Position numbers and translations under genes: made by a program. The notes under the pieces were generated by a model. The model worked only from the letters and a program-made list of their open reading frames with translations, was not told the DNA's origin and ran no database searches. From Proteobacteria bacterium CG1_02_64_396 (GTDB taxonomy: Bacteria; Pseudomonadota; MNWR01; CG1-02-64-396), in contig MNWR01000029.1 of the NCBI GenBank assembly GCA_001872725.1, positions 1-64,000 on the forward strand: DNA of 64,000 nucleotides, in the 5' to 3' direction. Positions 7,665-33,956 of the stretch are shown piece by piece (position 1 is the first letter of the stretch; each line of letters starts with the position of its first letter).

Positions 7665-8837
7665 TTACCGCGTCTCACTCCCCCCCATCACCTCAAACAA
7701 ATCGACCTTCCCCTGCCGTTTCACAAACAGCTCCCCATACAGCTCCCGCGCATCCATCTCTCCCCAGGCCACCGCTTGCAGCACCATGTAGGGGGCGGGA
7801 CTGTGGGGTTCCAGGCTCATCAGGTGGTGGGCGGCGTCGCGCAGTAGGGCGTAGGTCTCCTCCCGGTTGGGCAGGGTGTATTCCTGCTGCGCCCCCTGGG
7901 GGTGGGCCCCGGCATGGACCCCCTCATGGGGGTCGGACTCCGCCTCGAAACGGGCCGCCGCGTGCAGCGGTTCCGCGTCGTCGGGGTTTTCGGCCATGGG
8001 ACCGACCTCGATCTCTTGCGGGTAGGCGCCGCGACGGTTGAGTTCGGCGCCGATCATGCCGTCCACCCCCGCCAGCAGGGTGGCGATCGCCCCCAGGCTC
8101 GGGGCCTGATCGCCGCAGAGGCGGTCGAGCAACCCATCGAGGTCGCCCAGCGCCGTCTGCGCCTCGCGCACCGCTTGCAACGTCGCCAAATGGAAGGGGA
8201 TCGGGGTGATCCCCAGCGCGGTGGTGAATTGCTTGGTGGTCGCCCCCTCGATCTGCTTTTCGACCTTGGCGCCATGCACCGACAGCATTTGCTCGTTGCG
8301 CCCGGCTTGTTCCCAATCGGCCCACCCCCACGCCCGCTCCTCCCGCCCCGAGTCGGTCAGGGGGACCAAGCGCAGGGGGGGGAGCAGTTTGTCGTTGAGC
8401 CAGCGGAAGATGTTGACGCGGTGCTCCAGGTCGCCGGTGTCGTCGGGGTGCAGCGCCTCCCAGTAGCGCAGGCACAGTCCCCGCATCAGGGTCAAAGCGG
8501 CGGCCAACCCCAAAAAACCGGCCCGGTGGATCCCCGCCTCGGCCATCCAGGCGGCCAGTTGCAAATCCTTGCTGCGCCGGGCGATGGCATCCCGGGTCAG
8601 CACGGCGACCTTCTCCCAGTCGGCCTTTTTCAGATCCCGCTCCCACGGCCCCTGGGGCAGGGTGGGGTCGTCGGCGCGGCGTGCCTCTTGGATCTCGCGG
8701 AAGAGGGGGGAGCCGCGCAGATCCTCGCCGGAGGGGCGCTCCTCCTCGACCGGACGCAGCAGGTCGTCGAGCGACAGCCCGAGGATCTTGGCCAGGTAGG
8801 GGGGTGATTGCAGAAGATCGGTATTCATGGCGGTCAC
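7665..8837 (-). CDS. tssA: T6SS protein TssA (ImpA family)
   Basis: TssA caps the baseplate and primes polymerisation of the inner tube and sheath. The N-terminal ImpA domain is clear: RPSGEDLRGSPLFREIQEAR, then DWEKVAVLTRDAIARRSKDL and AAWMAEAGIHRAGFLGLA. The C-terminal portion carries NREETYALLRDAAHHLMSLE followed by EPHSPAPYMVLQAVAWG, as in the short-tailed TssA subgroup. Length is 390 residues from the GTG that overlaps the tssM stop; an in-frame ATG three codons later is an equally good start. It is the last core gene in the operon. Confidence 0.92.
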   Translation of the reverse strand: MTAMNTDLLQSPPYLAKILGLSLDDLLRPVEEERPSGEDLRGSPLFREIQEARRADDPTLPQGPWERDLKKADWEKVAVLTRDAIARRSKDLQLAAWMAEAGIHRAGFLGLAAALTLMRGLCLRYWEALHPDDTGDLEHRVNIFRWLNDKLLPPLRLVPLTDSGREERAWGWADWEQAGRNEQMLSVHGAKVEKQIEGATTKQFTTALGITPIPFHLATLQAVREAQTALGDLDGLLDRLCGDQAPSLGAIATLLAGVDGMIGAELNRRGAYPQEIEVGPMAENPDDAEPLHAAARFEAESDPHEGVHAGAHPQGAQQEYTLPNREETYALLRDAAHHLMSLEPHSPAPYMVLQAVAWGEMDARELYGELFVKRQGKVDLFEVMGGSETR

Positions 8838-11800: not shown

Positions 11801-12757
11801 GAAGAAGTTGCTGTGGAAGGCGCTGCCCCGGAAGAGCCCTTCGAGCACCTGACGCAGCGGCGCCCGCAGTGCGGCCATCCGCGACGGAAAGAGGAAGAAG
11901 CGGTCGACCTCGACCGGGTCGCCCCCCTCCCGGCCCGCCGCCTGCAACTGCAACCGTTTCAGCCCCTGTCCGACCTGGACGCAGGCCTCGTCGACCCAAT
12001 CGGGCAGGAAGGTGGCGTCGAGGGAATAGGGGTTGGACCAGCCAAACATCTGCTTGAGGTGGGCCGGATCCATCCGCGACCAGAAGGGACCAAACCCCTC
12101 GACGGCGTCGCACTGGGTGACCACCACATAAACCGGAAAGGTGAATTCGAAGCGGCGTTGCAACTCCAGCAATTGACCGTATTGCCGTTCGGCCCAGCGG
12201 CGCAGCTCGGCGGGGCTGCCCCCCAGCAGCAGGGGGGCCGGCAGGGCCAGGATCACCCCGTCCAGGGGCCGCTCGGGGCGGCGGTCGAACAGCCCCGCCA
12301 CCACCCGGTTCCAGGCCAGGCGGGTTTCGGGATCCTGGCTGTCGGGGGCGACCTCCAGCTCCAGGTCGATCAGCAGCCCCTGCTCGTAATAGACGAATTG
12401 AGTCCCCGGCAGGGCCAGGGCCGCTTCCTGGGGCGAGAGGGTTTCCCGGCGGCTGGCCCCCCCCGAGGCGGCCAGGGAGCTGCGGCCCGAGCCGGTCGGC
12501 CCGAGCAGCACGATCCAGGGGGCGCGGTAGCGCCATTCCCGACGTTGGGCCAGGGTGCGCACCCCCGCCATCAGGCGGGCGAGTTGGCGGGCCAGCCCCT
12601 GCAACCACCGCAACAGCAAGGGGGGCTGGGCGGTCGCCCCCCCCGCTGCCCGCTTGGGCGCCTTGGGTTTGAGCAGCCAGCCAATCGCCAAGGCGATCAG
12701 CAGCACCCCCGCCGTGAGGCTGGCGACCCCAAAAAGCGAGATGGACGCGAAGTTCAT
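8834..12757 (-). CDS. tssM: T6SS inner-membrane protein TssM (IcmF family)
   Basis: TssM is the large membrane-complex component that spans from the inner membrane to TssJ at the outer membrane. The 1307 residues begin with a transmembrane helix (about 6-28). A Walker A P-loop GPTGSGRSS follows at about 86-94, and WYDRR/DRRPERPLDGVIL-type segments are typical of the IcmF GTPase-like domain. A further hydrophobic helix lies near residue 385 (TVALFALLCTWLAF). The long periplasmic region ends with the conserved WPLLR-like block (FVDGPWALLRLIAEH). Length is normal. The start overlaps tssL by four bases (ATGA) and the end overlaps tssA. Confidence 0.95.
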   Translation of the reverse strand: MNFASISLFGVASLTAGVLLIALAIGWLLKPKAPKRAAGGATAQPPLLLRWLQGLARQLARLMAGVRTLAQRREWRYRAPWIVLLGPTGSGRSSLAASGGASRRETLSPQEAALALPGTQFVYYEQGLLIDLELEVAPDSQDPETRLAWNRVVAGLFDRRPERPLDGVILALPAPLLLGGSPAELRRWAERQYGQLLELQRRFEFTFPVYVVVTQCDAVEGFGPFWSRMDPAHLKQMFGWSNPYSLDATFLPDWVDEACVQVGQGLKRLQLQAAGREGGDPVEVDRFFLFPSRMAALRAPLRQVLEGLFRGSAFHSNFFMRGLYFTGAVAGSGVLEGDPRSDVAFVPELLENKVFAETNLARATRQGILSRHTAIRRIQLGTVALFALLCTWLAFDANRLVGQVDRTLGALDMVKDHKIGAPHSHGACVGRETSYALQDRIAQIDAHMSYPTIPVSWFDRRHEDTVSSRLSYEALRQVIFPELRCQLEARARNLLLDATPPDPKLSAPVVAQGWQQLILNRATALTEFERFNKLYWTVAYDYSASDPAPLLEMYKALSLYLYDEPLPSSVNNPDGLFRKALMEVEDKTPVQTPQGMHDTASQSLLTWGVQSQQGLFAQLDRGAEDLTQMRHAKGDNPATLADFSAWMGWIESSWLGSDAQHNPCLDIAQGMAPALKSLKGFDYPAATLDDVAALFGNDRCFQPAMTRLAAIPGPANAPLFSLRDGQWRLAEGAARERDQLVAASGLNFMQRNTADQMVCRVPLQGWDEGKLRAAMAALREYDAFAVAAADPDAPPTLGERLAKRRLAGVTNELLTQAQIGADLAWQTEVAVSPLAALEGAVRQQGGDFGRIKGDLVMLIAMLGQHGLETQAAQLTQCARDFAGDTLANIEALARASHLYRVPFHPVGTADPPETLLANLGSPPQVQELLDRQLQRAQVLGGYAAPFVNFLLNSQQIDDTHLGNRETAAYWGNTITELNRFVQFKEPSGQVAHLDDWIAKQLQPMTLGGCAADLKNHTSPPFGNDLFSLHRATLERQTASLCKARKEAVLDAGYQALAHAFNQSLAGRFPFGDDPSRPAPLLATRQFFLDYAQQRQGLLDEVKTTQGERWRQAERFLHRLDKAAAFFAANLAATPGSQSVGLHPTFRAFEDGTPAWHVSDQLLDWRLHSGQESATFPNDVRNLNWGFGQPVSLDFNWADRSSILPKKDPAQPSLSVDGPHATFFVDGPWALLRLIAEHRPTSRPPVDPLDPTTLALVFEVPVELPEGDNGAKVGRMFLALQLLGTDPTSGQPAPLTLPDFPIRAPLAW

Positions 12758-13608
12758 CCCGCCCTCCCCGTGGTGGTCGGAGCGGAGACCTGCCCCAGGG
12801 TATTGAAGGGGTTGATGGCGACGAACCAGACCGCCGTCGAGATGGCGACGTAGAGGCTGGCAGCGACCACGGCCCCGAACAGCCAGGGGCGCAGCGGGGC
12901 CAGACGCTGCCCGGTCGATTCGCTCAAGGTGTAACGGTAGGCCTGTTCAAAGGGGGGCAGGCTGCCTCGGGCGGTGGCATCGGCGCCGATGAAACGCAGC
13001 AGGCGGCGCCGGTAGTCGGCCAGCCCGGTTTTGCCTCGGCTGCCCCGGTATTTGCCTTGAAAACCGAGGTGCAGCGCCATCAGGAAGACGGCGGCCAGCT
13101 CCTCGTTCAGGGGGTTGTGGGAGCGGTCGGCCAGCAGGGTGTCGAGCCGGGCAAAGAGGTTTTCCCCCGACTCGTCGCTGTTGAACATGGCCCTCTCGAT
13201 CAGGTAGTGGGGCCAGTGCAGCGCCCCTTTCCATTCCAAATCGAGGATGAACAGCTCGTCGACCTGGGCCGCCATGACGTAGACGGCGCCGCGATAGGCG
13301 GCGATCCGCTCGGCGCTCGACTGCGCCTCGACCTGTTGTTGCTGGCGGCGCAGCAGTCGGATCAGCCGGTCGCTGACCATCGCCGCCAGGTCGTTGCCGT
13401 TCTGCACCAGGGTCAACGGTTGCTCCCCCTCTTGCCCCTCTTGCGGCGTCTGCGCCTGCCCATCGGGCGCACCCCTCCCACCCGTCTCCCGACTCAGGAA
13501 AAGGGGGAGTTGTCCCGCCGCCTGGGCCTGTTTGATCCGGGCGACCTCTGCGTAGAGGTCGCCGTACCAGGCCAGCAAGGGGCGGTCGCCGGTGAAGGGA
13601 TCAGCCAC
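12754..13608 (-). CDS. tssL: T6SS protein TssL (DotU family)
   Basis: TssL joins TssM in the inner-membrane complex and contacts the baseplate through its cytoplasmic hook domain. The DotU pattern is visible: YGDLYAEVARIKQ, AAYRGAVYVMAAQVDELFI and EWKGALHWPHYLIERAMFNS, then FLMALHLGFQGKYRG. A single C-terminal membrane helix (WLFGAVVAASLYVAISTAVW) anchors it. Residues about 40-65 form a Gly/Gln/Pro-rich insert. There is no peptidoglycan-binding extension. It starts at a GTG that overlaps the tssK end by eight bases; 284 residues is normal for the short form. Confidence 0.95.
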   Translation of the reverse strand: MADPFTGDRPLLAWYGDLYAEVARIKQAQAAGQLPLFLSRETGGRGAPDGQAQTPQEGQEGEQPLTLVQNGNDLAAMVSDRLIRLLRRQQQQVEAQSSAERIAAYRGAVYVMAAQVDELFILDLEWKGALHWPHYLIERAMFNSDESGENLFARLDTLLADRSHNPLNEELAAVFLMALHLGFQGKYRGSRGKTGLADYRRRLLRFIGADATARGSLPPFEQAYRYTLSESTGQRLAPLRPWLFGAVVAASLYVAISTAVWFVAINPFNTLGQVSAPTTTGRAG

Positions 13609-14956
13609 GGGGCGCCTCGTTCTGGGTGCGGTAGAGCAGGATCGCGGCAGGGCTGCCGACCCCCGGTCCCTCTATGGTCAAGGTCGAGCCGTCGGTGAAC
13701 ATCCGCACCAGTTTTTCTTTGCCCCCCTCCTCCAGGGTGACGGTGCGGTCGGTGATCGCCAGCAGCAGACCGCTGGCCTGTAGGGCGATCTCCCCCACCT
13801 TGGCGGGATCGGGTTTGTCGAGCAGGGCGCCGCGCAGACGGCGGCGGCGCAGCTCGGGCAGCAGGATCTTGTCGCCGATGCGAGTTTGGCTGGCCCAGCG
13901 GGCGATCTCCTCCTGGCTTTGCCCCTTTTGCGGGCGCAGCTCGATGACCAGGTCGCCCCCCATCCCCTCGGGGAGCTTGCGCTGAAAGGTCCCCCCCTCG
14001 ATCCGCTCGAAGGGGAAGATCTCGAAGGTGGTTTTCTGCCGCTCCAGGATCGACCCGACGTGGGCGATCAAGGCGCTGAAGCCGGGGATGCAGTGGTTGT
14101 GGTCGTAGGGCAGCGGCTTGGGGGGGATGGGTCGGGTGTCGAGGGCGGCCAGATGCCCCGCCGCCTGAGCCAGCGCCAGATACAGGTCGAAAGGGTGGGC
14201 GGCCGGGGTCTCGACCCAGACCTCAAGGGGGGGAAGGGCTGCGGCCAGGGGGGTAAGCAGGGTGCGCCCCCCTTGGGCGCCGCCGCCGTCGCCTCCGGCC
14301 AGCTCCTTGAGTTTGTCGCGCAGCGCCACCGTCATGGTCTGCAACCGGCTCGGCAGCCCCTCCTCCCCCAAAAAGGGGCAGGCGTCGGCCCGCAACATGG
14401 GGGGATGAAAGGGGGTGAGCTCCAGCTGTTTTTTCTCGTTGCGGCGCACCTCGACCAGGGGAATCGAGACATATTTGGCCGAGGGTTTGCCGTCGAACAG
14501 CGCCAGCACCGGGCGCAGGCGGCTCAGGGCGATGGTCGACTGGCCGGTGTTTTCATCCCGCGCCTGGGTGCCGACCGGGATATACCGCCCCGCCTCCCGC
14601 CCCTCGCCGGGTTGAGGGACCGCCAGGTAGATGCGGGCGGTGGGCTGTTCATCCCAGGGGTGATCCTTCAGGTCGCAGACCAGGGTTTGTCGTTCGTCGG
14701 CGGCGGGGAAGCGGACAGCCAGCCCGTCGGGCATGACGGCGTGCAGCAGATCGACGCGCACCTGCCCCTTGTCGAGCACTCCGGTGTCGATGCCCAGACG
14801 CAGCACCCCCCAGAAATAGGGGTGGTTGCGGGCGCTCAGGTGGAGCTGCTGCCGCTGCCAGTACAGGTCGCTCTGTTGCAGGTGCTGGGGGCCGAGCAGC
14901 ATCCCCTCACTCCACTGCACCGCATCGGATGGGGCGATGTCCCAGGGGGTCGTCAT
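13601..14956 (-). CDS. tssK: T6SS baseplate protein TssK
   Basis: TssK is the trimeric baseplate subunit that docks the baseplate to TssL/TssM. The family signature is at the N-terminus: VQWSEGMLLGPQHLQQSDLY followed by YFWGVLRLGIDTG. Further TssK-like segments include AKYVSIPLVEVRR and ALIAHVGSILERQ. The 451-residue length is typical. The ATG overlaps the tssJ stop in an ATGA junction, placing it in the tssJ-K-L-M-A block. Confidence 0.95.
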   Translation of the reverse strand: MTTPWDIAPSDAVQWSEGMLLGPQHLQQSDLYWQRQQLHLSARNHPYFWGVLRLGIDTGVLDKGQVRVDLLHAVMPDGLAVRFPAADERQTLVCDLKDHPWDEQPTARIYLAVPQPGEGREAGRYIPVGTQARDENTGQSTIALSRLRPVLALFDGKPSAKYVSIPLVEVRRNEKKQLELTPFHPPMLRADACPFLGEEGLPSRLQTMTVALRDKLKELAGGDGGGAQGGRTLLTPLAAALPPLEVWVETPAAHPFDLYLALAQAAGHLAALDTRPIPPKPLPYDHNHCIPGFSALIAHVGSILERQKTTFEIFPFERIEGGTFQRKLPEGMGGDLVIELRPQKGQSQEEIARWASQTRIGDKILLPELRRRRLRGALLDKPDPAKVGEIALQASGLLLAITDRTVTLEEGGKEKLVRMFTDGSTLTIEGPGVGSPAAILLYRTQNEAPRG

Positions 14957-20310: not shown

Positions 20311-22956
20311 TCATAAGACGATCTTGAGGGCGCCGACCAGGTCGGTGCTCAGGCCGCTGAGGATCGCTTCGAGCTGGGCCACCTTCTCTTGGCACTGCAC
20401 ACCGGAGCCCCAGAGGTTGATGTTGTTGCTCACCCCCGACAGGGTGATCGAGGTGGTGTCGCCCGCCAGGGTAATGTCGGTGCTGGAGCCGATGACGTTG
20501 ATCCCGGTGCTCGATCCGGTGACGTTGATTCGGGTGGTACTGCCCACCACCCCGATGTCGGTGGAATCGCCGGTGACGCTGATGCTGGTGTTGGCCCCGG
20601 TCACCCCGATGTTGGTCGAGACCCCGGTGACGTTGATGCCGGTCGACATGCCGGTGACCCCGATGCTGTCGCTCGCTCCGGTCACCCGCAGTTCGCTGCT
20701 TGCCCCGGTGATGGCGGCGCTGTCGCTCATCCCGGTCAGATTGAAGCCGGTGCTGATGCCGGTCAGGCCGAAACTGCTGCTGATGCCGGTCATCTCCATC
20801 CGGTTTTGCATGCCGGTCAGGCTCATCCCCTGGCTGATGCCGGTGATGCTACTGCTGGTGCTCATCCCGGTGGCGGAGACCTCGGTGTGCATCCCGGTCA
20901 CCGAGGTGTTGCTCGACATGCCGGTGATCGAGGTGTTGGTGTTGGTCCCGGTGGTGCTGGTGCTGGTGGAGGTGCCGACGGTGCTGGTGGTGGTGGAGGT
21001 ACCGGTGGTCGAGGTACGGGTTTCGGTGCCGGTGGTCGAAAGGCTTTCGCTGGTGCCGACCTTGTCTTCCCGGTAGTTGTAGCCGGTGTCGGACCACACC
21101 TTGGACTCATCGGCCTCCGAGGTGCTGTAGGTATTCCCGTAGGAATAGCTCTCGCTGAGGATGGCGTGCCGCCCGTTTTCAGAGGTGGAGTAGTTCCACC
21201 CCGCCCCCCTGCTGTAGGAGGCATCCTTGAATTTGCCGCTGTCGTAGGCCCCCGAGACCTTGCCCCAGGCGGCGTCGACGTCGCCGGTCGAGACGTTGGA
21301 ATTCATGCCGTAGCGCAGTGCACGGCTGTCGCCGTACGAGGTGGAATCGTTGTTGCCGACCTGGGTGTTGCTGGTCCAGCCGGGGGGGGTGACCACCTTG
21401 CTGCCGAAGCTGTGCAGGATTTGCTGGATTTCGGGCAGCTCCGATTCGTCGCTGCTGCGCCCCACCAACACGATGGCCCCCACCTCGGGGATGGTCTGCA
21501 TACTCGGGGCGAGTTTGACGAAGGTCGCCGCCCCGCCGCCGTCGGTCGAAAAGCTGACGTAGACCCCCTTGGCGTCGAGGCGGTCGCCGCTACAGGTGTC
21601 CTCGAAGGTGTGGCGGGCCAGGTCGAAGTCCCCTTTGTAGTCGTACTCCCAGCGCCCCGATCCTTCGACCGGTTGATGGGCCACCACCTGGGCGAGTAGG
21701 GAGCCCTGGTGGGTGTCTTGAATGTCGAAGGGGGTGACCAAGCCGGTCTCTTCGGTCGATTGGAATTGGTTGGAATACTTGCCGTCGAGGCTGGCCTCGT
21801 GCTGCACCTGGGTCAGGACGAAACTGCGCCCTTCAAGGCTGGGGCGAACCGGACTGGGGTTGCTCGGGGCGATGAGTGAGCCGGTCAGGGTGAAGGTGTG
21901 GCCGACCCGCATTCGGTCGCAGCTGCTCGCCCCGCTGAGCGAGGTGCCCGAGGTCGCCAGGGCGTCGGCGGCGTTGCCGGTGAAGCGGGTGACCTCCTCC
22001 TGATTGCAGCCGTATTGAAAAATCTTGTACTGATGGAAGGGCAGATCGTCGTCCCCCTCGGGCTGGGTCGCCTGCACGCTGGCGTATTCGGGGGGGTAGA
22101 AGGGGGCCTCCCAGGCGGCATGTTGACGCACGAAACGGCCATGGATCGTCGAGGTGGTCAGGGTCTGTTCGTAGCTGTACTGGGTAATCAAGTCGTCCTG
22201 ATCGAGACCGAGCGCCTCGATGTTGCTCATGGTGTAACGCAGGGGGCGGTTGTCGGGGTAGACCTTGGCGTAGTGGGGGCGGTTGGCGAAGACCGCCACA
22301 TGACCGCGCGCCGATTGCAGGAAGTAAAAGTAAAGCTGCGCCTTGCCCATCAAGCGCTGCACGAAGGCCAGATCGCTCTCGCCTGCCTGCAACCAGTCCT
22401 GCACCCGCCACACCGCCGGATTGTCGTCCCCCTCCAGGGTGCTCATGTCGTAGGCGACCTTGTGCTGGTCGAGCACCCCGGCAATGGCGTCGCGGATGTT
22501 GCATTGGGGGTGGATGCGGTAGTTGTTGCTCAGGCTGAGTTTGAACAGCGCCGCCTTGACCGTGAGGTTGTAGACCCCCGGCTCGGCCATGGCGAAGGAG
22601 ACGGCGATGCCGTTGAAAAACGACCACTGCGCGCTACCCCCCTGGGCCAGGGCGGTCAGAAAGGGAATGGGGGTCGCGTCGGGATCAAGGGGACGGCGCA
22701 CCGCGAAGGTGACCGGGCGCCCCATGATCTGGTCGAAATCGATCTGGCGTGTCGCGGCGGGGTCGGTATTGGCATGCAGTTGCAACTGAAACGAAAACGG
22801 GGCGTTGACCTGCTCCTGACCCTTGAAGCCGATCAGGCGAAACAGGTTCTGACCCAGCACCGTGCCGTCGGCCAGGGTGATGGCCAGTTGCAGGGCATCG
22901 TCGCCGCACGGCGGCTCGCGCAGATCGATGCGGCTGCGTCCGATGACCGCGCTCAT
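20311..22956 (-). CDS. vgrG: T6SS spike protein VgrG (TssI) with long repeat tail
   Basis: 881 residues. The N-terminal gp27/gp44-like region is clear (FRLIGFKGQEQVNAPFSFQL, FFNGIAVSFAMAEPGVYNLT, CNIRDAIAGVLDQHKVAYD, DLAFVQRLMGKAQLYFYF). The gp5-like part includes RSFVLTQVQHEAS and VGAIVLVGRSSDESELPEI. Residues about 655-850 are a run of roughly ten-residue units of the form TGxSTxxxVTG, predicted to extend the needle as a triple-stranded beta helix. The C-terminus is a short helix (KVAQLEAILSGLSTDLVGAL) with no recognised toxin domain. The start overlaps the tssG stop (ATGA). Confidence 0.93.
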   Translation of the reverse strand: MSAVIGRSRIDLREPPCGDDALQLAITLADGTVLGQNLFRLIGFKGQEQVNAPFSFQLQLHANTDPAATRQIDFDQIMGRPVTFAVRRPLDPDATPIPFLTALAQGGSAQWSFFNGIAVSFAMAEPGVYNLTVKAALFKLSLSNNYRIHPQCNIRDAIAGVLDQHKVAYDMSTLEGDDNPAVWRVQDWLQAGESDLAFVQRLMGKAQLYFYFLQSARGHVAVFANRPHYAKVYPDNRPLRYTMSNIEALGLDQDDLITQYSYEQTLTTSTIHGRFVRQHAAWEAPFYPPEYASVQATQPEGDDDLPFHQYKIFQYGCNQEEVTRFTGNAADALATSGTSLSGASSCDRMRVGHTFTLTGSLIAPSNPSPVRPSLEGRSFVLTQVQHEASLDGKYSNQFQSTEETGLVTPFDIQDTHQGSLLAQVVAHQPVEGSGRWEYDYKGDFDLARHTFEDTCSGDRLDAKGVYVSFSTDGGGAATFVKLAPSMQTIPEVGAIVLVGRSSDESELPEIQQILHSFGSKVVTPPGWTSNTQVGNNDSTSYGDSRALRYGMNSNVSTGDVDAAWGKVSGAYDSGKFKDASYSRGAGWNYSTSENGRHAILSESYSYGNTYSTSEADESKVWSDTGYNYREDKVGTSESLSTTGTETRTSTTGTSTTTSTVGTSTSTSTTGTNTNTSITGMSSNTSVTGMHTEVSATGMSTSSSITGISQGMSLTGMQNRMEMTGISSSFGLTGISTGFNLTGMSDSAAITGASSELRVTGASDSIGVTGMSTGINVTGVSTNIGVTGANTSISVTGDSTDIGVVGSTTRINVTGSSTGINVIGSSTDITLAGDTTSITLSGVSNNINLWGSGVQCQEKVAQLEAILSGLSTDLVGALKIVL

Positions 22957-24056
22957 GCCGCCTCCTGCCCGGCGAAGGCGGGGATGATAAAGCGCACCTC
23001 GCTGGGGGGGTGATCGGGTAGATCGGCCCCATCCCCCAGCCAGGCATCGAGGCCGAGCCGGGGGGATGGCGCCCGTGCCAGCAGCGGGGCGTCGCCCAAC
23101 CGCGCCTGTGCCCCCAGGTGGGTGGCACGCGGTTGCAGCCGGGCATCCCAGGGCTGGGTTTGCAGCCGGATGTGGCAGTCGAGGGAGCGTCCGGTCAAGA
23201 AGTGAAGCAGCGCCTTGAAACCGGCGTGACCCTCCCCCCCCGGCAGCAGCGCCTCGAAGCGCGCCCGGGGCAGGGGGCCGATGCTCAGGCCGATTCCCGC
23301 CTGTTCGTCCCAGGCCCGCTGCCCCAAGGGGGTGTCGATCCCGAGCCGGTTGCGGCGCTTGCCGAGGCGGATTTGGTCCTCCTCGGCGATGGCGAACCAG
23401 TTGCCCACGTAGGGTTCGAGCGCGACCGGCGCTTGCACGAAGGCGCCCAGCACCCGAATCAAGGCGGTGGGGCTGCGGCGTTGATCGGCCAGCAGGCCGG
23501 TCAGAGCCAGCAGGGCGCGGCGGGGCAGCGGTAGGGGGTTGGGCAGGTCGGGATCGCAGCATCCGAGCAGGGCGGCCAGATCCCGCCCCAGGGGGGTCTG
23601 CTCCGGGTCGTCGCTGGTGCTCAATCCCGGCTGCTGCCGGGCCTTGATCTCAAAGCGCAGGGTGTTGATGCGGTGGTTGAACAGATCGAGAAAGTCGCCC
23701 ATCGCCCGGTCGCCCCGGGCCGCCCGATCCCGAGCCCACTCCCCGTAAGGGTCGGGCAGGGGGCCCATGGCCCCCGCGATGCTGTAGTTGGGGGTCGCCA
23801 GCGCGACGGGGCCATCCTCGCCCTCGGTTTTCCAGCCACTGACCTCGTGGCCGGGGAAGGCGGCCGACAGCTCCCCCTTGAAACGCAGCGGCGGAATCGG
23901 ATCGCCGTGCGCACCGGTGGTGTTGGCCGGGTGCCCCTGCCCGGGACGCAACAACAGGCGCACGAGCTGATAGAAATCGAAGCCCGCGTGCCCCCGCTGG
24001 AGTTGCCCCCTTAAATCAGAGGCTGGTCGCCGCAACGCACTGGCCATCGTTTCCAT
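22953..24056 (-). CDS. tssG: T6SS baseplate protein TssG (ImpH)
   Basis: TssG forms the baseplate wedge with TssF and TssE. The family start is visible (LQRGHAGFDFYQLVRLLLRP), followed by FKGELSAAFPGHEVSGW, then SIAGAMGPLPDPYGEWARDR and FLDLFNHRINTLRFEIK, the strongest TssG signature. Length is 367 residues from the first ATG; a second ATG three codons later is also possible. The start overlaps tssF by about 46 bases and the end overlaps vgrG. Confidence 0.95.
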   Translation of the reverse strand: METMASALRRPASDLRGQLQRGHAGFDFYQLVRLLLRPGQGHPANTTGAHGDPIPPLRFKGELSAAFPGHEVSGWKTEGEDGPVALATPNYSIAGAMGPLPDPYGEWARDRAARGDRAMGDFLDLFNHRINTLRFEIKARQQPGLSTSDDPEQTPLGRDLAALLGCCDPDLPNPLPLPRRALLALTGLLADQRRSPTALIRVLGAFVQAPVALEPYVGNWFAIAEEDQIRLGKRRNRLGIDTPLGQRAWDEQAGIGLSIGPLPRARFEALLPGGEGHAGFKALLHFLTGRSLDCHIRLQTQPWDARLQPRATHLGAQARLGDAPLLARAPSPRLGLDAWLGDGADLPDHPPSEVRFIIPAFAGQEAA

Positions 24057-25795
24057 ACCCCCTCGTGACGATCACTCCTAAGCCCCACCTCGACAAAGGT
24101 GTTCAGGTGGGCCAGCAGCGCCAGAAAATGGGTGAGGACCGCCCCAAACAGCAGCGGACTGCCCCCTTCGAACCGTTTTTCGATCACTTGCAACTCAACC
24201 GCCAATCCCCGCCTAAAACCTCGCCACGGCTGCTGTTCGATCAGCCGCATCGCCGGAGTCAGGGTCAGCCCCTCCAACCCCTCGATCTGCTTCCACCCCT
24301 TTTCTCGGTCCTCTCCGGCGTGCAGACGCAGCATCCGCTTGAGGTTTTCGAGATCGAGGTTTTGCAGGTTCATCCCCAGTTGGGTCACCAGCCGCCAAGG
24401 GCGGGCGCCGAGTTGGGTGGGGTGGCGGTGGGGGGTGGGGGTGTCGAGCAGGGTCGCCCCGACCACCGCGCCGGGCCCCTCCAACTTGAAGGTGTCGCCC
24501 GCCCGCAGCCATTCGGGCAGGTTGCGGTTGGTGCACAGCGCCCGCCCCCCGATCACCGCGTCGGCGGGCAAATCCAGGTCGAACTGTCGATCCATGAACG
24601 AGATGTAGAACTCGCTTCCGGCCACCTGGGGCAGATGGCTCTCCTCCCGGCGCCAGCCGTAGAAGGTGTCCCGCTCCTCCAACCGATCAAACCCCTCCAT
24701 GGCAAAGAAGGGGACCACCTCGCGGGGACGTCCGCCGGGGCGGGTGGCGGTCAGCCGTTCGAGGGCGTAGATCTCGCAGTAGCGGTGGCGGGCGACGTCG
24801 CCGGTCAGCCGGTATTCGTAGCTTTTCTGGTCGAGGATCAGCGGGTCGATCGGTTGGGGGAAGAGGTTGACCAGCGGCACGCAGTTGAGCCGCAGCAGGG
24901 AGCGGTTCGCCTTGAAGGTGGCGTTGGTATCGAACAGAAAGAAGAGCTCGAAATCCTCAATCGCCCCCCCCAGGTCGATTCCCTCCAGATCGAAGAAGAG
25001 AAACTTGGCCGGGAAGGCGAAATACTCCTGCAACAGCCGGTAGCCGGGGTGGGTAGCGTCCCGCTCCGGCAGCGCCCCCTCGTCCGCCTCGAAGCCGACC
25101 CAGCGCAGGGTCTCGGGGGGGAGGAAGGTTGTCTGCGCGCCGATCCGCACCGCGATCCCGCTCAGGTTGACCATCAGCAGGTTGTAAAGGGTGAAGGCCG
25201 CAGGGGCGCGGGTGTCGATGTGCAGCCGCAGGGTGGGGGCGCCCAGCGCTTGAATGGGGTCGTTGCTCCCTGGTATGCGGGTCACCTGCACCTGTAGGGT
25301 CGAGAAGACCTCGGGATGCCCCAGCAAGAACTCCAGGCTCGCCGCTTTGCGCAGATGGAGCGAAGCGACCTCCAACGGCAGCAGGGTGGTTTGCCAGCAG
25401 GTGCGCATTCGGCAGGGGGTGGTGTACCCCTCGCTGCTCTTGGCCTGGGTTTGAAACAGGCGGTGGCGCTCCAGGGTGAAGGGGCCGCCCGGTTTCATCG
25501 CCACCTGGGCCACCGCCATCGAGGGGATGGGGGCCTCAAGGTGGGGATACAGGGCGGCGAGCAGGGTGTTGGGCAAGGCGGCCCGGTCGCTTTCGAGTTG
25601 GTAATGCAGCCGACCGGTGAGGAAGGCGAACGATTGCAGCAGCAGTTCAACGTGGGGATCGCCCGAGTGGCCATGGCTCATGGCCAGCGCCTGGGCGGTG
25701 GCGGGATGGGCGTCGGCGAACTGCCGACCCTCTTGACGCAGCAGTCGCAGCTCTTCGTGGTAAAAGTCTTTGAGTTTGAGCGCTTCGCCGGTCAT
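24011..25795 (-). CDS. tssF: T6SS baseplate protein TssF (ImpG)
   Basis: 594 residues beginning MTGEALKLKDFYHEELRLLR, the classic TssF opening (the frame is open further upstream but without homology). Other family blocks: DPHVELLLQSFAFLTGRLHY, LYPHLEAPIPSMAVAQ, LHIDTRAPAAFTLYNLLMVN, VNLFPQPIDP and RSLLRLNCVPL. TssF forms the wedge with TssG. It lies 43 bases after tssE and overlaps tssG. Confidence 0.95.
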   Translation of the reverse strand: MTGEALKLKDFYHEELRLLRQEGRQFADAHPATAQALAMSHGHSGDPHVELLLQSFAFLTGRLHYQLESDRAALPNTLLAALYPHLEAPIPSMAVAQVAMKPGGPFTLERHRLFQTQAKSSEGYTTPCRMRTCWQTTLLPLEVASLHLRKAASLEFLLGHPEVFSTLQVQVTRIPGSNDPIQALGAPTLRLHIDTRAPAAFTLYNLLMVNLSGIAVRIGAQTTFLPPETLRWVGFEADEGALPERDATHPGYRLLQEYFAFPAKFLFFDLEGIDLGGAIEDFELFFLFDTNATFKANRSLLRLNCVPLVNLFPQPIDPLILDQKSYEYRLTGDVARHRYCEIYALERLTATRPGGRPREVVPFFAMEGFDRLEERDTFYGWRREESHLPQVAGSEFYISFMDRQFDLDLPADAVIGGRALCTNRNLPEWLRAGDTFKLEGPGAVVGATLLDTPTPHRHPTQLGARPWRLVTQLGMNLQNLDLENLKRMLRLHAGEDREKGWKQIEGLEGLTLTPAMRLIEQQPWRGFRRGLAVELQVIEKRFEGGSPLLFGAVLTHFLALLAHLNTFVEVGLRSDRHEGVWKRWPVRCGDQPLI

Positions 25796-25838
25796 GACAC
25801 TCTCCGAAAAACCACTATGCGACGCCCCCGACGCAGCC

Positions 25839-26219
25839 TTACGGCTGCCCTTCCAGGGGAAATCGGATCTCCTCAACCTCCTGTCCCAGATTGAGTTTGG
25901 CCCGCACCACCAAACGGTAGGGGGCGTTGGTAACCCCCCGTTCGACCTCGACCGCCACGTCGCGCAGACGCAGCTCCCAACGGGCGATCAACCGGCTGAG
26001 CGCCTGGGTATAGGCGGCCAGCGCCTCCCCTCCGCCGCCGGGGTGCAGGGCGACCGGGCTTTCCAGGCCGAAGCCGAAGAGCCCCTCCTGGCCGTCGAAG
26101 GGGGAGCGGGCGCTGGCGACGATCCGCTGCACATTGGCTCGGATCAACGCCAAGGGGTCGTCCCCCTCCCGCTGCCCCCCTCTGGGGTCGCTCAACCGCT
26201 CGAAGAGATAACGTTTCAT
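25839..26219 (-). CDS. tssE: T6SS baseplate protein TssE (gp25-like)
   Basis: 126 residues from MKRYLFERLSDPRGGQ. The gp25/lysozyme-like wedge fold is recognisable: LIRANVQRIVASARS, then EGLFGFGLESPV, LSRLIARWELRLRDVAVEVE and YRLVVRAKLNLGQEVEEIRF. This is a component of the T6SS baseplate wedge that nucleates the sheath. The upstream in-frame ATG would overlap hcp heavily and was rejected. It follows hcp by 17 bases. Confidence 0.92.
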   Translation of the reverse strand: MKRYLFERLSDPRGGQREGDDPLALIRANVQRIVASARSPFDGQEGLFGFGLESPVALHPGGGGEALAAYTQALSRLIARWELRLRDVAVEVERGVTNAPYRLVVRAKLNLGQEVEEIRFPLEGQP

Positions 26220-26236: not shown

Positions 26237-26818
26237 TTAAGAGGTGAAGTCCCCAATGGGCCGGTTGCGCGACACGCTCCAACCCGCCGCCCGCATGCCG
26301 GGCGAGGTGGTGTCGGCCGCCTGCACCGAGTACTCCCAGAGGATTTCGGTGAAGTTGAGCTTGAATTGCTCGGTCGGCATGTCGTCGGGGTGGGACTGAA
26401 ACTGGATTTCGCTGATCAGGGCGTAGCGCAGGTAGAAGGTCATGATGTTGAGGGTCTGATCCCCCGAGTTGCGCATGATGAACAGCTTGGTCGCCGCAGC
26501 TTTGGTCCCCGAGGAGTCGAGCGGCTTGGCCCGCAGGCAGTAGTCGTAGAGCCCTACCGAGGTCTTATCGACGTATTTGACGCAGGTGAACTCGGTGATG
26601 ACCGGCCGTCCCGAGGTTCGGGCCGAGTTGCTCACGTCGGTGGTCACCTGCTGCTTCATCCCCTGGTGGATCGAGACCAGCTCGAAGCAGGGGCGGTCGC
26701 CGACCTGCTTGAGGATGTCGTCCTTCCACTCGGCGTCGATGAGGCTGCCGCCGTCCTGCCAGCTGTTGCTCCCTCCGAAGATGGAGTCGTCGCCGGGCTG
26801 CAAAAGAATCAGGTCCAT
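26237..26818 (-). CDS. hcp: T6SS tube protein Hcp (TssD)
   Basis: Hcp hexamers stack into the secreted inner tube. The 193 residues include WKDDILKQVGDRPCFELVSI, ITEFTCVKYVDKTSVGLYDY, then MTFYLRYALISEIQFQSHPD and QFKLNFTEILWEYSVQ, the usual C-terminal Hcp block ending in a Tyr-rich strand. It is somewhat longer than the common 160-170 residues because of an extra tail (TTSPGMRAAGWSVSRNRPIG). A purine-rich AAAGGG lies upstream of the ATG. It sits between tssBC and tssE. Confidence 0.92.
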   Translation of the reverse strand: MDLILLQPGDDSIFGGSNSWQDGGSLIDAEWKDDILKQVGDRPCFELVSIHQGMKQQVTTDVSNSARTSGRPVITEFTCVKYVDKTSVGLYDYCLRAKPLDSSGTKAAATKLFIMRNSGDQTLNIMTFYLRYALISEIQFQSHPDDMPTEQFKLNFTEILWEYSVQAADTTSPGMRAAGWSVSRNRPIGDFTS

Positions 26819-26879: not shown

Positions 26880-28952
26880 TTAGGCCGGAAGATCGGCTAC
26901 CAGGCGGATCGAGGTGGTCAGCTCCTCAAGCTGGAAGTGGGGCTTGAGGAAGATTGTCGCCTTGTAGGCCCCCGGCTTGCCGGGCACATCGGTGACGCTG
27001 ATCTTGGCCGCTCGTAGCGGGTAGGAGGCCTTCACATCTTGGGGCGCCTCGTCGTCGAGCAGCACGTACTGGGCGATCCAGCTGTTGAGATAGGACTCGA
27101 CGTTGCTCCGGGTCATGAAGCTGCCGACCTTCTCGCGCATGATCACCTTGATGTAGTGGGCAAAACGGGACGCCGACAAGATGTAGGGGAGCATCGAGGA
27201 GACCTGGGCGTTGGCGTTGGCCAGATCCGAGATGTACTGCTTGGGTTTGTTGGTGGTTTGGCCGCCGAAGAAAACCGCTTGGTTGGTCCCCTTGCAGTGG
27301 CACAGCGCCATGAAACCCAGGTCGTTGATCTCTTTCTCGCGCCGGTCGGTGATGGCGACCTGGGTCGGGCAGATCATCGCCACGTCACCCTCGCCGGTTT
27401 TGAAGTTGAAGGCGGGCAGCCCCCGAACCAATCCCCCCCCTTCGACGCCGCGAATAGCGGCGGTCCAGCCGTAGAGGGAAAAGGCGGTGGTGACCCGATT
27501 GGCCAAAAGGTAGGCGGCGTTGCCCCAAAGGAACTTGGTGCTGTCGGGCTCAAGCGCAGTGTCGGGGGTTCCGGCGGGGGGGAGCGACCATTCGTCGACC
27601 GAGCCCACGTCCTCTTCGAAGCGGATCCCCTCGACCGGGTTGGTCTTGTCGCCGTAGGGCAGGCGCAGCAACACATCGGGGAGCACCAGCGAGACGTAGC
27701 GGGAATCCTCGCTGTCGCGGAAGCCGCGCCATTCGGTCAGCTCGGTGTTCTCGAAGATCTTGGCCAGGTCGCGGGGCTTGGCCAGCGCCTCGAAATTCCC
27801 CAACCCGAACAGCCCCGGCGCCGCTGCGGCGACAAAGGGGGCGTGGCTGGCGGCGGCCACCTCGGCGATTTTGTCGAGCAGGGTGATGTCTTGCGGACTG
27901 CTGCCGAAGCGATAGTCGCCCAGCAACATGCTGTAGGGGGCGCCGCCGTAGGTGCCGTATTCGGCCTCGTAGATCTTTTTAAAGACGGCGCTCTGATCGA
28001 ATTCAACCGCCTTGGTCAGATCCTTGTAGAGATCGTCGCGGCTGATGTTGAGCACCCGCAGCTTGAGCATGGTGCCGGTCTCGGCCCGGGAGATCAGGTA
28101 GAACATCCCCCGCCAAGTCGCCTCAAGATCCTTGAACTGCTGGTCGTGCATCACCAGGTTGAGCTGCTTGGCGACCAGGGCGTCGATCTCGGCAGTGCGG
28201 GCATCCATGAACTGTCCCGCCGACCAGCCGCGACGCGGATCCTCATCGGGGATGTTGGCGGCGGTGATGTTGGCCAGAACGTCGACCGTCAGCTGACCCA
28301 ACATCGCCAGGGTCGCGGCGGGGTCGCCACCGATGAGCTCGGCCAAAGTCGCCACCTCGTCGGCGGCGGTCACTCCACGCCAAACCGTGGGATCGTCGCC
28401 GGTGAAGGCGGTGGTGAATTTGCCCCGCAACGCATCCCCCTCGGTTCCAATCGTGACCGCCAGGTCGAGCAGCTTGGCCACCGCGTCGGAGACCTCGACC
28501 TTGGTTTGCAGGTCGCGGATGCGGCAGCGCCGGTCGTACCAAACCTTGAAGGGATTGACGGCGGGGGTGGCCGGGTTGGTGCCGTCGCCGGGGATCTCAC
28601 CCCAGTCGGGGCGCGACACCAGCGACAGAGGTTCGAAGTGGGTCAGGTCGCCGAAGGTGAGCAGACCGCTGAGGTTGCCGGTGCCGCCCAGCACATTGGG
28701 GACCGGGGCCAGCTTGATGCGCGGTTTGCACGATTTGAGGACGGCGTTGAAGTTGTCCCGGTCGATTTCGACCATCTTGCGATCCTTGACCGGGAGGAGC
28801 TCCGAGGCGGAGTCGCCGGACAGATCGGCGAAGATGCCGATGATGAAGGGAAGCTCCTTCTTCTGGAGCGCCCCACCGGTTTCGACGTCGTAGGTGATTT
28901 TCACCCGCGGCGGACGGACCCGGGTGAGTTTGTCTTGGACACTTCCCAACAT
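26880..28952 (-). CDS. tssBC: Fused T6SS sheath protein TssB-TssC
   Basis: One 690-residue frame holds both sheath subunits. Residues 1 to about 180 match TssB/VipA: SVQDKLTRVRPPRVKITYDV, LPFIIGIFADLSGDS, VKDRKMVEIDRDNFNAVLKS, FGDLTHFEP. From about 245 to the end it matches TssC/VipB: QLNLVMHDQQFKDLEATWRG, YGTYGGAPYSMLLGDYRF, FGSSPQDITLL, LVLPDVLLRLPYG, FLWGNAAYLLANR and CHYIK-like ASRFAHYIKVIMREKVGS. In most systems these are two genes. A linker of Ala/Thr-rich sequence joins them. The ATG is preceded by GAGGAG. It is the first large gene of the operon, after the 82-aa gene. Confidence 0.92.
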   Translation of the reverse strand: MLGSVQDKLTRVRPPRVKITYDVETGGALQKKELPFIIGIFADLSGDSASELLPVKDRKMVEIDRDNFNAVLKSCKPRIKLAPVPNVLGGTGNLSGLLTFGDLTHFEPLSLVSRPDWGEIPGDGTNPATPAVNPFKVWYDRRCRIRDLQTKVEVSDAVAKLLDLAVTIGTEGDALRGKFTTAFTGDDPTVWRGVTAADEVATLAELIGGDPAATLAMLGQLTVDVLANITAANIPDEDPRRGWSAGQFMDARTAEIDALVAKQLNLVMHDQQFKDLEATWRGMFYLISRAETGTMLKLRVLNISRDDLYKDLTKAVEFDQSAVFKKIYEAEYGTYGGAPYSMLLGDYRFGSSPQDITLLDKIAEVAAASHAPFVAAAAPGLFGLGNFEALAKPRDLAKIFENTELTEWRGFRDSEDSRYVSLVLPDVLLRLPYGDKTNPVEGIRFEEDVGSVDEWSLPPAGTPDTALEPDSTKFLWGNAAYLLANRVTTAFSLYGWTAAIRGVEGGGLVRGLPAFNFKTGEGDVAMICPTQVAITDRREKEINDLGFMALCHCKGTNQAVFFGGQTTNKPKQYISDLANANAQVSSMLPYILSASRFAHYIKVIMREKVGSFMTRSNVESYLNSWIAQYVLLDDEAPQDVKASYPLRAAKISVTDVPGKPGAYKATIFLKPHFQLEELTTSIRLVADLPA

Positions 28953-29065
28953 GGTTTTCTCGGCTCCTCTGTGTCATCCCATAGGTCATGCCGAACGATT
29001 CGGCCTGGCCCCGGTGGTCGCCGCTCCAAGAAGTACCTTCGCGGCGTGCCTCAGGACGACCCTTT

Positions 29066-29314
29066 TTAGTGGGTCGTGATTGAGCGGCGGTACATCACCT
29101 GACCGCCATTGGTGTTCTGGCAAACGACCTCGCCCTGGGCGACCAGGCGGTCGAGCGCCTGCTGCACCAGATCGAGGGAATCGTTGTAGCGCTGGCGCAA
29201 CAGCCACCACCGCGCCACCCCTTCCAGGGTTTCGGAGGCGTCGGGCCGCGAGGCCAGGTAACGGCTGATGGCATCGGCGGCGCTGGCAATCTCGTCTCGT
29301 TGGATTCGGCTCAC
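29066..29314 (-). CDS. Small winged-helix-like protein, first gene of T6SS operon
   Basis: 82 residues starting MSRIQRDEIASAADAISRYL. The pattern SETLEGVARWWLLRQRYNDS, then LVQQALDRLVAQGEVVCQNT and a final beta hairpin (GGQVMYRRS) looks like a winged helix-turn-helix. Similar short proteins occur near T6SS genes; the function is unknown to me. It lies 113 bases upstream of tssBC and about 145 bases downstream of the predicted sigma54 start site, so it is probably the first cistron. It could be a regulator or a structural adaptor. Confidence 0.65.
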   Translation of the reverse strand: MSRIQRDEIASAADAISRYLASRPDASETLEGVARWWLLRQRYNDSLDLVQQALDRLVAQGEVVCQNTNGGQVMYRRSITTH

Positions 29315-29468
29315 GCGGTTTCTCCCTCGTCGGATCCTTTGGGCACCGCCGCCTGCTGTGGCGCTGCCCTGCGTTGATGTCGGCTACGGACGCCGGGCGA
29401 TCCGGCCAGTCGCGTGCTGCCCGGATCGCCTCGGCCCAGGTACGGTCGAGGGGCGTCGGGAACCCCTA

Positions 29469-29486
29469 TTGCAGGGGGTGTGCCAA
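29469..29486 (-). promoter_or_regulatory. Sigma54 (RpoN) type promoter for the T6SS operon
   Basis: On the minus strand the sequence reads TTGGCACACCCCCTGCAAT. GG and GC are exactly ten bases apart, matching the -24/-12 consensus TGGCAC-N5-TTGC in all core positions except one. The start of transcription would be near 29459. It points at the 82-aa gene and tssBC. A sigma54 activator is encoded at 31190-32551. Confidence 0.7.
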
Positions 29487-29587
29487 GGTTTTTTTGGTTC
29501 GTTAAGTATTTGTAAATCAAACGAAAATATTGAATTTGTTGCGGCGATGGGTGGGTCGCGGCGGACCCAGGGGGGGGAGGCCCTTGG

Positions 29588-29610
29588 CATTACCTGATGA
29601 GGGGGTAATG
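29588..29610. promoter_or_regulatory. Candidate activator-binding palindrome
   Basis: CATTACC and GGTAATG form a perfect 7+7 inverted repeat with a 9-base spacer. Its centre lies about 115 bases upstream of the -24 element, the usual distance for a sigma54 enhancer site. Binding by the nearby activator is inferred from position and symmetry. Confidence 0.5.
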
Positions 29611-29966
29611 GGCGCAATTGCAGGGGTTTGGCAGAGGATGGGGGGGTGGGTCGCGGATGACCCGGCCGGGGCACGGGGGACCCAGGGGCTTAATCGGGGA
29701 ATTCGGGGGGGCGGTTCGACGTGGGTCGTCGGCGGGGATGGGGGGATCGGACCCCCCGCGTTGATTCCTGCGCTGGGTAGAGGCGTTTTTTGGAGGGCAC
29801 GCGCCGTCGCGGTTATTGCGGCGCTTTCAAAACCGGTCGTTGACGTTCCTGGTTTTGGCGGTCCATCCGTGGGTCGCAAGGGTGCGCCGAATCAATCGGC
29901 GCTTGTCTCAACACTGCTGGGGGGGTGATGTGCCCCGGTCGAGCCGGGTTCACCCCCCCTGGTCGC

Positions 29967-31109: not shown

Positions 31110-31189
31110 GACGTGGACTCCTTGATCGATGGTGATGGGCCGTGTTGTTGTGGGTCGTTTCGAGCGGCAGCAGGAGCGATCCACCCGGT

Positions 31190-32551
31190 TTAATCCTTCC
31201 CGAAATTCCCCCGGTCGATCCCGTATTTTTTGAGCAGTTTTCCGAAGGCCCGCCGCTCTTTGCCGGCCAGGCGGGCCGCCTCGGAGACGTTGCCGTCGGT
31301 GGTGCGCAGCATCTCTTGCAGGTAGCTGCGCTCGAAGGCCTCCATCGCCTCGCTCTTGGCCTCGTTGAAATTGCGCTGGGCGCTCGACGCCTTGGCGCGG
31401 GGGGTGTCCGAGGCGGGGGTCAGGTGGAGGGGGTCCCCCTTGACGGTGGGGATGCAGATGCTGCGTCCGGTCGAGAGCACGAAAATCCGGTGCAGGTAGT
31501 TTTCGAGCTCCCGGACGTTGCCGGGCCAGGGGTAGTGGTTCATCCACTCCAGGGTGATGGGGTGCAGCTTTTTTTCGGGGCAGCGGTAGCGCTGGCTGAA
31601 TTGCCGCAAAAAGTGTTCGGCCAACAGCGCAACGTCGCCGGGGCGCTCGCGCAGCGGCGGAATCTGAATATGCAGGATGTGCAGCCGGTAGTAGAGGTCC
31701 TCGCGAAAACGACCCTCGGCAACCAGCACCTCAAGGTCGCGGTTGGTGGCGCTGACCACCCGCACATCGCTGCGCAGGGTGCTGGTGCCTCCCAGGGGAC
31801 GGTATTCCCGGTCCTGCAAAAAGCGCAGCAGCGCCCCCTGCCCCTTGGGGGTCAGGCTGTCGACCTCGTCCAGAAACAAAGTCCCCCCCGAGGCCTGGGC
31901 CACCAAGCCGGGATGGGCCTGCTTGGCGTCGGTGAAGGCCCCCTTTTCGTAACCGAAGAGCTCGGCCAGCAGCAGATCGTCGTTCAAGGCGCAGCAGTTG
32001 ACCGGAACAAAGGGGCGGTCGCAGCGGGCGCCGGTGTAGTGAATCCCCCGCGCCACCATCTCTTTACCGGTGCCGGTTTCGCCCCGCAGCAGCACCGGGG
32101 TGTCGTATCCGGCGAAGGTCGCCACCACCTTGAGCATCCGCCGAATCGGGGGCGAATCGCCCAGGATGTTCAGGCTGAGCATCTCCTGAACGGCGGGGGA
32201 GGGGTCATGGGGATGGTCGTCGGTGAGGTGGTCGATCAGGGTGTCGTCGTCGAACGGGGCGACCAATACCCGGTTGCAACGGCGTAGCAGATCGGGGTGT
32301 TCGAGGAGGGAGGGGTCGAAGGTGACCAGCAGCTCAAAGGCGTGATCGTTGTGCAGCAGGTCGGCCAAGTGTGGGGTTTGGCCGCGACCGACCAACAGGA
32401 CTGGGGTACGGCCCGAGGTCGAGGTTGGTGGGCTTCCTGGGGCGTGCAGCGTGGGATCGGGAAGCTGCCAGGAGCGGCATAGCCCCAGCAGATGCTGGAT
32501 TTCCCGATCATTTGCAATGGCGACTAAAGCGAGCTTCCGATTGCGATCCAT
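31190..32551 (-). CDS. Sigma54-dependent transcriptional activator
   Basis: 453 residues. The N-terminal about 120 residues resemble a receiver fold but lack an obvious phosphorylatable Asp (VLLVGRGQTPHLADLL). The AAA+ domain has Walker A GETGTGKE, the sigma54-contact loop as GAFTDA in place of the usual GAFTGA, Walker B GGTLFLDEVDSL, and RFREDLYYRLHILHIQIPPL. The C-terminus carries a Fis-type helix-turn-helix (GNVSEAARLAGKERRAFGKL). T6SS clusters often encode such activators (VasH type). The predicted sigma54 promoter and palindrome at 29.5 kb are likely targets; this link is inferred. Confidence 0.88.
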   Translation of the reverse strand: MDRNRKLALVAIANDREIQHLLGLCRSWQLPDPTLHAPGSPPTSTSGRTPVLLVGRGQTPHLADLLHNDHAFELLVTFDPSLLEHPDLLRRCNRVLVAPFDDDTLIDHLTDDHPHDPSPAVQEMLSLNILGDSPPIRRMLKVVATFAGYDTPVLLRGETGTGKEMVARGIHYTGARCDRPFVPVNCCALNDDLLLAELFGYEKGAFTDAKQAHPGLVAQASGGTLFLDEVDSLTPKGQGALLRFLQDREYRPLGGTSTLRSDVRVVSATNRDLEVLVAEGRFREDLYYRLHILHIQIPPLRERPGDVALLAEHFLRQFSQRYRCPEKKLHPITLEWMNHYPWPGNVRELENYLHRIFVLSTGRSICIPTVKGDPLHLTPASDTPRAKASSAQRNFNEAKSEAMEAFERSYLQEMLRTTDGNVSEAARLAGKERRAFGKLLKKYGIDRGNFGKD

Positions 32552-32659
32552 GTCGTGTCCTCTGGTGATGAACCAATGGGCGACGGACCTTGAGGGTTGC
32601 AGCTTTAAAAATCAAGCCCTTAGAGCAATAAGCTCTTAAACGACCTTATTTATGCTTAT

Positions 32660-33934: not shown

Positions 33935-33956
33935 CGTCCCTCCCCGTGCATTGTGA

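Follow-up and report, generated by a model that had tools for sequence, protein, structure and literature searches.

A very likely sigma54 promoter with putative activator dyads in front of a T6SS operon, and a similar module before eCIS operons

The window, that is, the whole stretch of 64,000 nucleotides from contig MNWR01000029.1 of Proteobacteria bacterium CG1_02_64_396 that we analyzed, carries a type VI secretion system (T6SS) gene cluster together with the promoter-proximal features collected in Table 1. Behind the promoter and on its strand, the genes follow each other in the order 82-aa gene, TssB-TssC, Hcp, probable TssE, TssF, TssG, spike, pentapeptide pair, TssK, TssL, TssM and TssA-like gene; the sheath, tube, baseplate and membrane core genes of a T6SS are present, TssE by position only. 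Judged by their order and strand, these genes would form one transcript. A fused TssB-TssC sheath occurs in 51 of the 81 loci that we compared, and pentapeptide-repeat proteins are kept in many relatives. No ClpV above the NCBIfam cut-off was found in the genome (2.94 Mb in 109 contigs); the best match (844 bits vs 884.95; G000:C15:38565-41063) is probably ClpB, and the T6SS of the window may be without a sheath-recycling ATPase of its own. A calcineurin-like phosphoesterase gene (29967-31109), apparently unrelated to the T6SS, lies between the activator gene and the promoter. Upstream of the activator gene (32660-37092) follow pyrimidine genes (dihydroorotate dehydrogenase, its electron-transfer subunit and dihydroorotase) and a gene for a periplasmic binding protein.

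Table 1. Genes and DNA elements of the T6SS locus, in positions of the window.
Feature	Position	Strand	Remarks
TssA-like protein (ImpA_N)	7665..8837	-	
TssM (IcmF-related)	8834..12757	-	
TssL (DotU)	12754..13608	-	
TssK	13601..14956	-	
Two pentapeptide-repeat proteins, one with DUF2169	17685-20303 and 16606-18087		inside the T6SS operon
VgrG-type spike	20311..23562	-	open frame; true start probably further in
TssG	22953..24056	-	
TssF	24011..25876	-	
Probable TssE	25839..26219	-	by position and reading frame only, without Pfam match
Hcp tube protein	26237..26818	-	
TssB-TssC fused sheath protein	26880..28952	-	690 aa
Small winged-helix protein (predicted fold), first operon gene	29066..29314	-	82 aa; no named family
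sigma54 -24/-12 element TTGGCACACCCCCTGCA	29470..29486	minus (operon)	matrix score and conservation
AT-rich stretch, proximal dyad to promoter	29487..29551	no strand	66% AT; weak IHF-like match with two mismatches
Proximal dyad TGGGTCCGCCGCGACCCA	29552..29569	-	starts 83 bp upstream of -24/-12; leave-out score 14.1
Palindrome CATTACC-N9-GGTAATG	29588..29610	no strand	exact; unsupported as enhancer
Distal dyad CGGGTCATCCGCGACCCA	29647..29664	-	leave-out score 13.3
Second distal dyad TGGGTCCCCCGTGCCCCG	29667..29684	-	one mismatch; 20 bp from its neighbour; leave-out score 12.2
sigma54 activator	31190..32551	-	453 aa; AAA+ with GAFTDA, Fis-type HTH with KERRAFGKL, poorly defined N-terminal domain

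The sigma54 -24/-12 consensus reads TGGCAC-N5-TTGCW. The original prediction had placed a near-consensus element of this kind on the operon strand, and it is indeed found there (29486-29470, minus strand): TTGGCACACCCCCTGCA has GG at -24, GC at -12 and the standard spacing, and it deviates from the consensus by one mismatch, its -12 box being CTGC instead of TTGC. Transcription is predicted to start near 29459. Scored with a matrix that we built from this consensus, the element reaches 16.8, a value equalled in none of 30 shuffles. Pattern counts lie at chance level, both in the window (20 sigma54-like sites with at most two mismatches vs 28.6 expected) and in the genome (seven exact copies of TGGCAC-N5-YTGCW vs 10 for the reversed control pattern); they are uninformative and we rejected them as evidence. 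It is the conservation across loci, not the number of pattern matches, that gives the site its significance.

For this comparison, a sheath-protein scan of genome contigs was used, from which 80 loci of 230 relatives were kept (81 with the window). In each locus we looked for the genes of the window, and the highest-scoring sigma54 site was taken from the 1 kb that precedes the sheath frame. A score of at least 12 counted as strong, a threshold chosen with the scores already known. Such a site precedes the sheath gene in 30 of the 31 loci (window included) that combine a fused sheath with the activator or the small gene, L105 being the single one without, vs none of the 30 split-sheath loci (Fisher p 1.4e-16, computed on related loci whose counts are not independent). 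It is also present in 7 of 20 fused-sheath loci that lack both activator and small gene in the available DNA, two of which have less than 100 bp upstream. Eight extra loci served as negative controls; activator and small gene were absent from all eight, and a strong site occurred in one (L153). The genome itself has one match for rpoN (Sigma54_DBD, 222.7 bits). Collectively, a sigma54 promoter before the T6SS operon is very likely on comparative grounds, and the earlier proposal that such a promoter would drive this operon is upheld by its conservation.

The 250 bp upstream of the sigma54 site were searched in 36 loci for symmetric motifs with no preset pattern; L085, a near-copy of L076, was left out of the motif work. 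The search returned tGGGt.aaattt.aCCCa with a likelihood gain of 137.7, vs 38.8-50.3 in five shuffled sets. Exact copies of YGGGT-N8-ACCCR occur twice in the window (29552-29569 and 29647-29664), whereas two copies were present in none of 5000 shuffles. Under a matrix restricted to the arms, from whose training set the window, L052 and L061 were withheld, the leave-out score of 14.1 was reached in none of 1000 shuffles, the top shuffle scoring 13.3. Over the 36 loci there are 81 dyad sites vs 16.6 in shuffles, 19 dyad spacings of 18-22 bp vs 0.30, and 17 proximal dyads at -84 to -76 vs 0.30. Dyads with at most one mismatch were found in 16 of 37 loci (0.95 expected), in none of 30 split-sheath control loci and in one of 185 coding windows. 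The arms-only scan did not find a dyad scoring at least 6 in L077, L083 and L116; for L116, a separate scan gave CGTGCG-N6-CACACG at -81.

In relatives, two distal dyads stand about 20 bp from each other, and a third, proximal one lies about 80 bp before the promoter. As a distal pair is often joined by one proximal site in this way, the layout amounts to three dimer sites, the number that a hexamer needs. The window appears to have the same arrangement, with one mismatch in its third site, and both its sequence and its conservation support putative activator sites upstream of the promoter. The likely enhancer is this set of TGGGT-N8-ACCCA dyads, to which the adjacent activator would bind. Of the 36 loci, 8 have an exact IHF-like sequence between the proximal dyad and the promoter (0.2 expected), and 20 have one with at most one mismatch (4.4 expected), in a test that was prompted by an earlier k-mer list and relied on an IHF consensus. 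The genome has 13 dyads, and the two of the window are the only ones with a strong sigma54 site no more than 400 bp away. For 10 of the 11 dyads outside the window, no sigma54 site scoring at least 11.5 was detected in the roughly 3 kb around them; the exception, L142, has one about 700 bp off. With a site of that score absent from these roughly 3 kb or about 700 bp away, we rejected these outside dyads as further targets of the activator in the genome.

The protein expected to bind the dyads is encoded about 1.7 kb from the promoter, beyond the phosphoesterase gene; the original prediction had named this gene, given there as 2 kb away, and it remains the likely partner of the promoter. Its product matches PF00158 (AAA+ sigma54-interaction domain, 207 bits) and PF02954 (Fis-type HTH, 27.6 bits); a domain search gave no match to a GAF domain in its N-terminus. 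This N-terminal part comprises about 125 residues, is nearly absent in many members of the activator clade and is of low confidence in the structure model (mean pLDDT 62), which hints at alternating strands and helices. The sigma54-contact loop reads GAFTDA, not GAFTGA. An Asp in the loop (GAFTDA, GSFTDA or GAYTDA) is found in 33 of 36 clade activators and a Gly in three (L057, L059, L099), vs GAFTGA in all 11 activators outside the clade. In NorR, the substitution G266D, which creates GAFTDA, is described in the available text of PMC2941729 as allowing escape from repression by the N-terminal domain and as constitutive; stimulation of the ATPase still needs enhancer DNA, and promoters are still opened with sigma54. 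The accessible part of a Desulfovibrio survey counts GAFTDA among the loop variants compatible with function (PMC4641369). VfmH of Dickeya has GAFTDA as well, and sigma54 was not found in its pull-down, according to the portion of the report available (PMC10714721).

A tree of 46 activators separates 35 from these loci (28 T6SS, 6 extracellular contractile injection system, eCIS, and 1 other) from 11 others by a 100/100 branch. The eCIS rows are interleaved with the T6SS rows at modest inner support (84-92). The tree leaves out the own activator of L192 and the rows L046, L048 and L169, and its rows L057, L059, L099, L166 and L191 retain some extra N-terminal sequence; the loop counts given above come from separate reads. 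In a table read by eye, the half-site of the dyads tracks one residue of the activator recognition helix. A Gly helix (KERRAFGKL, QDRSAFGKL) mostly goes with a YGGG half-site, a Ser helix (QDRSAFSKL) with CGTG or TGAG, a Thr helix (KERRAFTRL) with TGAG and a Cys helix (KERRSFCRL) with YAGG. This match spans several branches of the tree: the activators of Chitinolyticbacter (L054) and of L060/L071 fall among those of Dyella, yet they combine Gly with YGGG, and L099 combines Thr with TGAG far from Dyella. Exceptions are L077, which has no clear site, and L087, in which TGAG stands beside AGGG.

The first gene of the operon encodes a conserved small protein: 11 columns are invariant when 13 sequences are aligned. 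No convincing family was assigned to it by sequence searches of Pfam, NCBIfam, PHROGs and PDB. Its structure model predicts a winged helix (pLDDT 82.6), and its closest structural neighbours in Foldseek are winged-helix domains, among them those of Fur-type proteins (best E 1.2e-3, none at or below 0.001). The small gene lies behind the promoter in 21 of the 27 loci with both; in the other 6 it adjoins the activator gene, on the upstream side of the promoter. As it is found at either of two places, its position hints at a partner in regulation and not at a component of the machine, and the protein is the best candidate for a partner or feedback factor of the activator.

The alignment of the small protein was further searched against 398 genomes of the phylum and 369 genomes of the class of another genome; 3 of the 398 (the window's own included) and 13 of the 369 had a match, with one genome in both counts. 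This provided a hold-out set of 14 loci unused before (2 + 12). The 450 bp in front of the small gene contain a sigma54 site scoring at least 12 in 11 of the 14 (0.22 expected), and promoter and proximal dyad (score of at least 7) occur together in 10, at a shuffled dyad rate of 0.032 per locus. The promoter misses are L164 (Dyella layout, score 10.1), L189 (score 10.0, dyads present) and L196, which is probably a false match; the sole dyad miss among the promoter-positive loci is L187, where the arms-only scan gave no dyad scoring at least 6.

In 9 of the 14 hold-out loci, the small gene is followed by eCIS genes (L163 with L171, L186-L190, L192-L194), as called by Pfam and comparison from sheath, tube, Pvc16_N or spike domains; the call for L190 is made from Pvc16_N alone before the end of the record. 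T6SS genes follow in two loci (L164, L185), and the others have other genes (L191), a contig end (L195) or no recognisable locus (L196). A search for eCIS with Pvc16_N gave no match in the window's own genome, but none in any control genome either, and so does not show that eCIS genes are absent from it. For the eCIS operon of L171 (G153:C19:110500-129500), the likely activator is encoded on another contig (L172:7536-8549); it has GAFTDA and no N-terminal domain, and its gene adjoins that of a kelch/Ig-like protein. L191 (G485:C85) has the activator, the small gene, the promoter and three dyads, but putative exported proteins follow in place of an injection machine. A link between sigma54 and eCIS was not found in the literature searched, outside of which subscription papers mostly lie, nor in the available parts of PMC8213781 and PMC10598620.

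The promoter, the dyads with their positions, the covariation with the recognition helix and the gene order, all of them read from DNA, lend themselves to a model that we regard as highly probable: a sigma54 promoter of the T6SS operon that is worked by the activator encoded at 31190-32551 through three dyads of the TGGGT-N8-ACCCA type. The activator would bind the three dyads as dimers, and these dimers would assemble into the ATPase hexamer. Acting across the AT-rich stretch, in which relatives have an IHF-like bend site, the hexamer would open the promoter for sigma54 polymerase. With Asp in its GAFTDA loop, the activator would not be held off through this loop in the usual way and may be constitutive in character; the output would consequently be set by how much activator is present or by a partner. 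The winged-helix protein from the first gene is a candidate for this partner or for a feedback factor.

The model departs from the original prediction in its enhancer, for which CATTACC-N9-GGTAATG, centred about 115 bp upstream of the sigma54 element, had been proposed. The palindrome is exact and lies at a plausible distance, and the suggested search for further copies returned no second perfect one in the 2.94 Mb genome. However, when the 480-bp intergenic stretch, which itself has three perfect 7-bp inverted repeats, was shuffled 500 times, 246 of the shuffles contained at least one such repeat, the mean being 0.89. The best copy among the 36 related loci (L062) has two mismatches and sits in a different place, and the other 35 have 4 to 6 mismatches. 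We rejected the palindrome as enhancer on account of this chance-level occurrence and its absence from relatives; conserved instead are the dyads on both sides of it, whose half-sites stand in the reverse order (GGGT, then ACCC), and there is very little probability left that the activator binds the palindrome. A reading in which the dyads are occupied by the small winged-helix protein, while the activator binds elsewhere, draws on the co-occurrence of small gene and dyads and on the predicted fold. It is improbable, since the half-site varies with the recognition helix of the activator, the protein that the comparison covered, dyads are present where the small gene was undetected (L055, L056, L065, L070), and their position, tandem spacing and form are those of activator sites.

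The operon might also be driven mainly by a sigma70-type promoter, with the sigma54 element minor or inactive, an idea that the commonness of sigma54-like sites by count in window and genome would favour; the absence of a sigma70-type match from 28800-32700 in a simple consensus scan, and the conservation of the sigma54 site together with the enhancer, leave it a very low probability. We are equally sceptical that another of the activators of this genome works the promoter. The genome has 12 Sigma54_activat matches, nine of them strong, and the phosphoesterase gene separates the activator gene from the promoter; relatives, however, keep an activator of the same well-separated clade beside the operon, and the recognition helix of the adjacent activator fits the dyads. 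The dyad-bound adjacent activator remains our preferred reading.

Many activators of the clade resemble PspF in having almost no N-terminal domain; PspF is held off by PspA. Bernard et al. (2011; J Bacteriol 193:2158) reportedly placed T6SS clusters of Marinomonas and other bacteria under sigma54 and a cluster-encoded activator; Marinomonas, with three of our 80 relatives, is shared with their set. As the available parts of several studies describe, VasH- and Sfa2-type activators of Vibrio, Aeromonas and Pseudomonas are sigma54 activators encoded in the T6SS cluster that switch on T6SS genes (PMC10482370, PMC8855297, PMC9972734). The activator of the window is likewise encoded with its T6SS, but VasH and Sfa2 have an N-terminal GAF domain, and Sfa2 has GAFTGA, whereas the window activator has no GAF match and GAFTDA. 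Sfa2 shows, in the text available, one clear binding peak 2132 bp from the RpoN site; the dyads of the window lie less than 200 bp from the promoter. At norVW of E. coli, three upstream dimer sites scaffold the NorR hexamer, as stated in the accessible text of PMC2941729, and the window has three dyads. NorR senses nitric oxide via its GAF domain and has GAFTGA as its natural motif, whereas Asp is the natural state in the window activator. According to an eCIS survey, GerE was the first regulator found to be conserved in eCIS; no word beginning with "sigma" occurs in the available text of this survey (PMC8213781). The GerE/LuxR-type regulator is comparable in that it, too, provides transcriptional control of contractile injection operons, and it differs from the sigma54 module found here before eCIS operons.

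Control of T6SS by sigma54 and a cluster-encoded activator is already known from the accessible parts of earlier work (PMC10482370, PMC8855297, PMC9972734, PMC3804575). The promoter is a further member of this known kind; the system differs from it in the Asp of the activator loop, in its likely enhancer of dyads, in the winged-helix gene and in a module that eCIS share. The original prediction stands in its sigma54 promoter and in the nearby activator as likely partner, and falls in its CATTACC enhancer; it had missed the GAFTDA motif, the winged-helix first gene and the presence of the same module before eCIS operons elsewhere. We consider it possible, at somewhat less than even chances, that the sigma54 module, with its Asp-loop activator clade, three-dyad enhancer and winged-helix co-regulator, is a common control unit for T6SS and eCIS that is kept or swapped between them, in which the activator would be constitutively competent and the winged-helix protein a switch or brake.

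Little is known of how T6SS of this type, and the majority of eCIS, are turned on, and a recent review states, in the part available, that the regulation of eCIS clusters without conserved regulatory genes remains unclear (PMC10598620). A defined promoter, enhancer and activator, together with a small co-encoded protein, are directly testable, and the promoter/enhancer pattern can be used as a search pattern for injection machines. The clade represents a natural family with a loop change that in NorR is known only as a laboratory mutation. Our findings suggest that two machines with different life styles may share one control unit.
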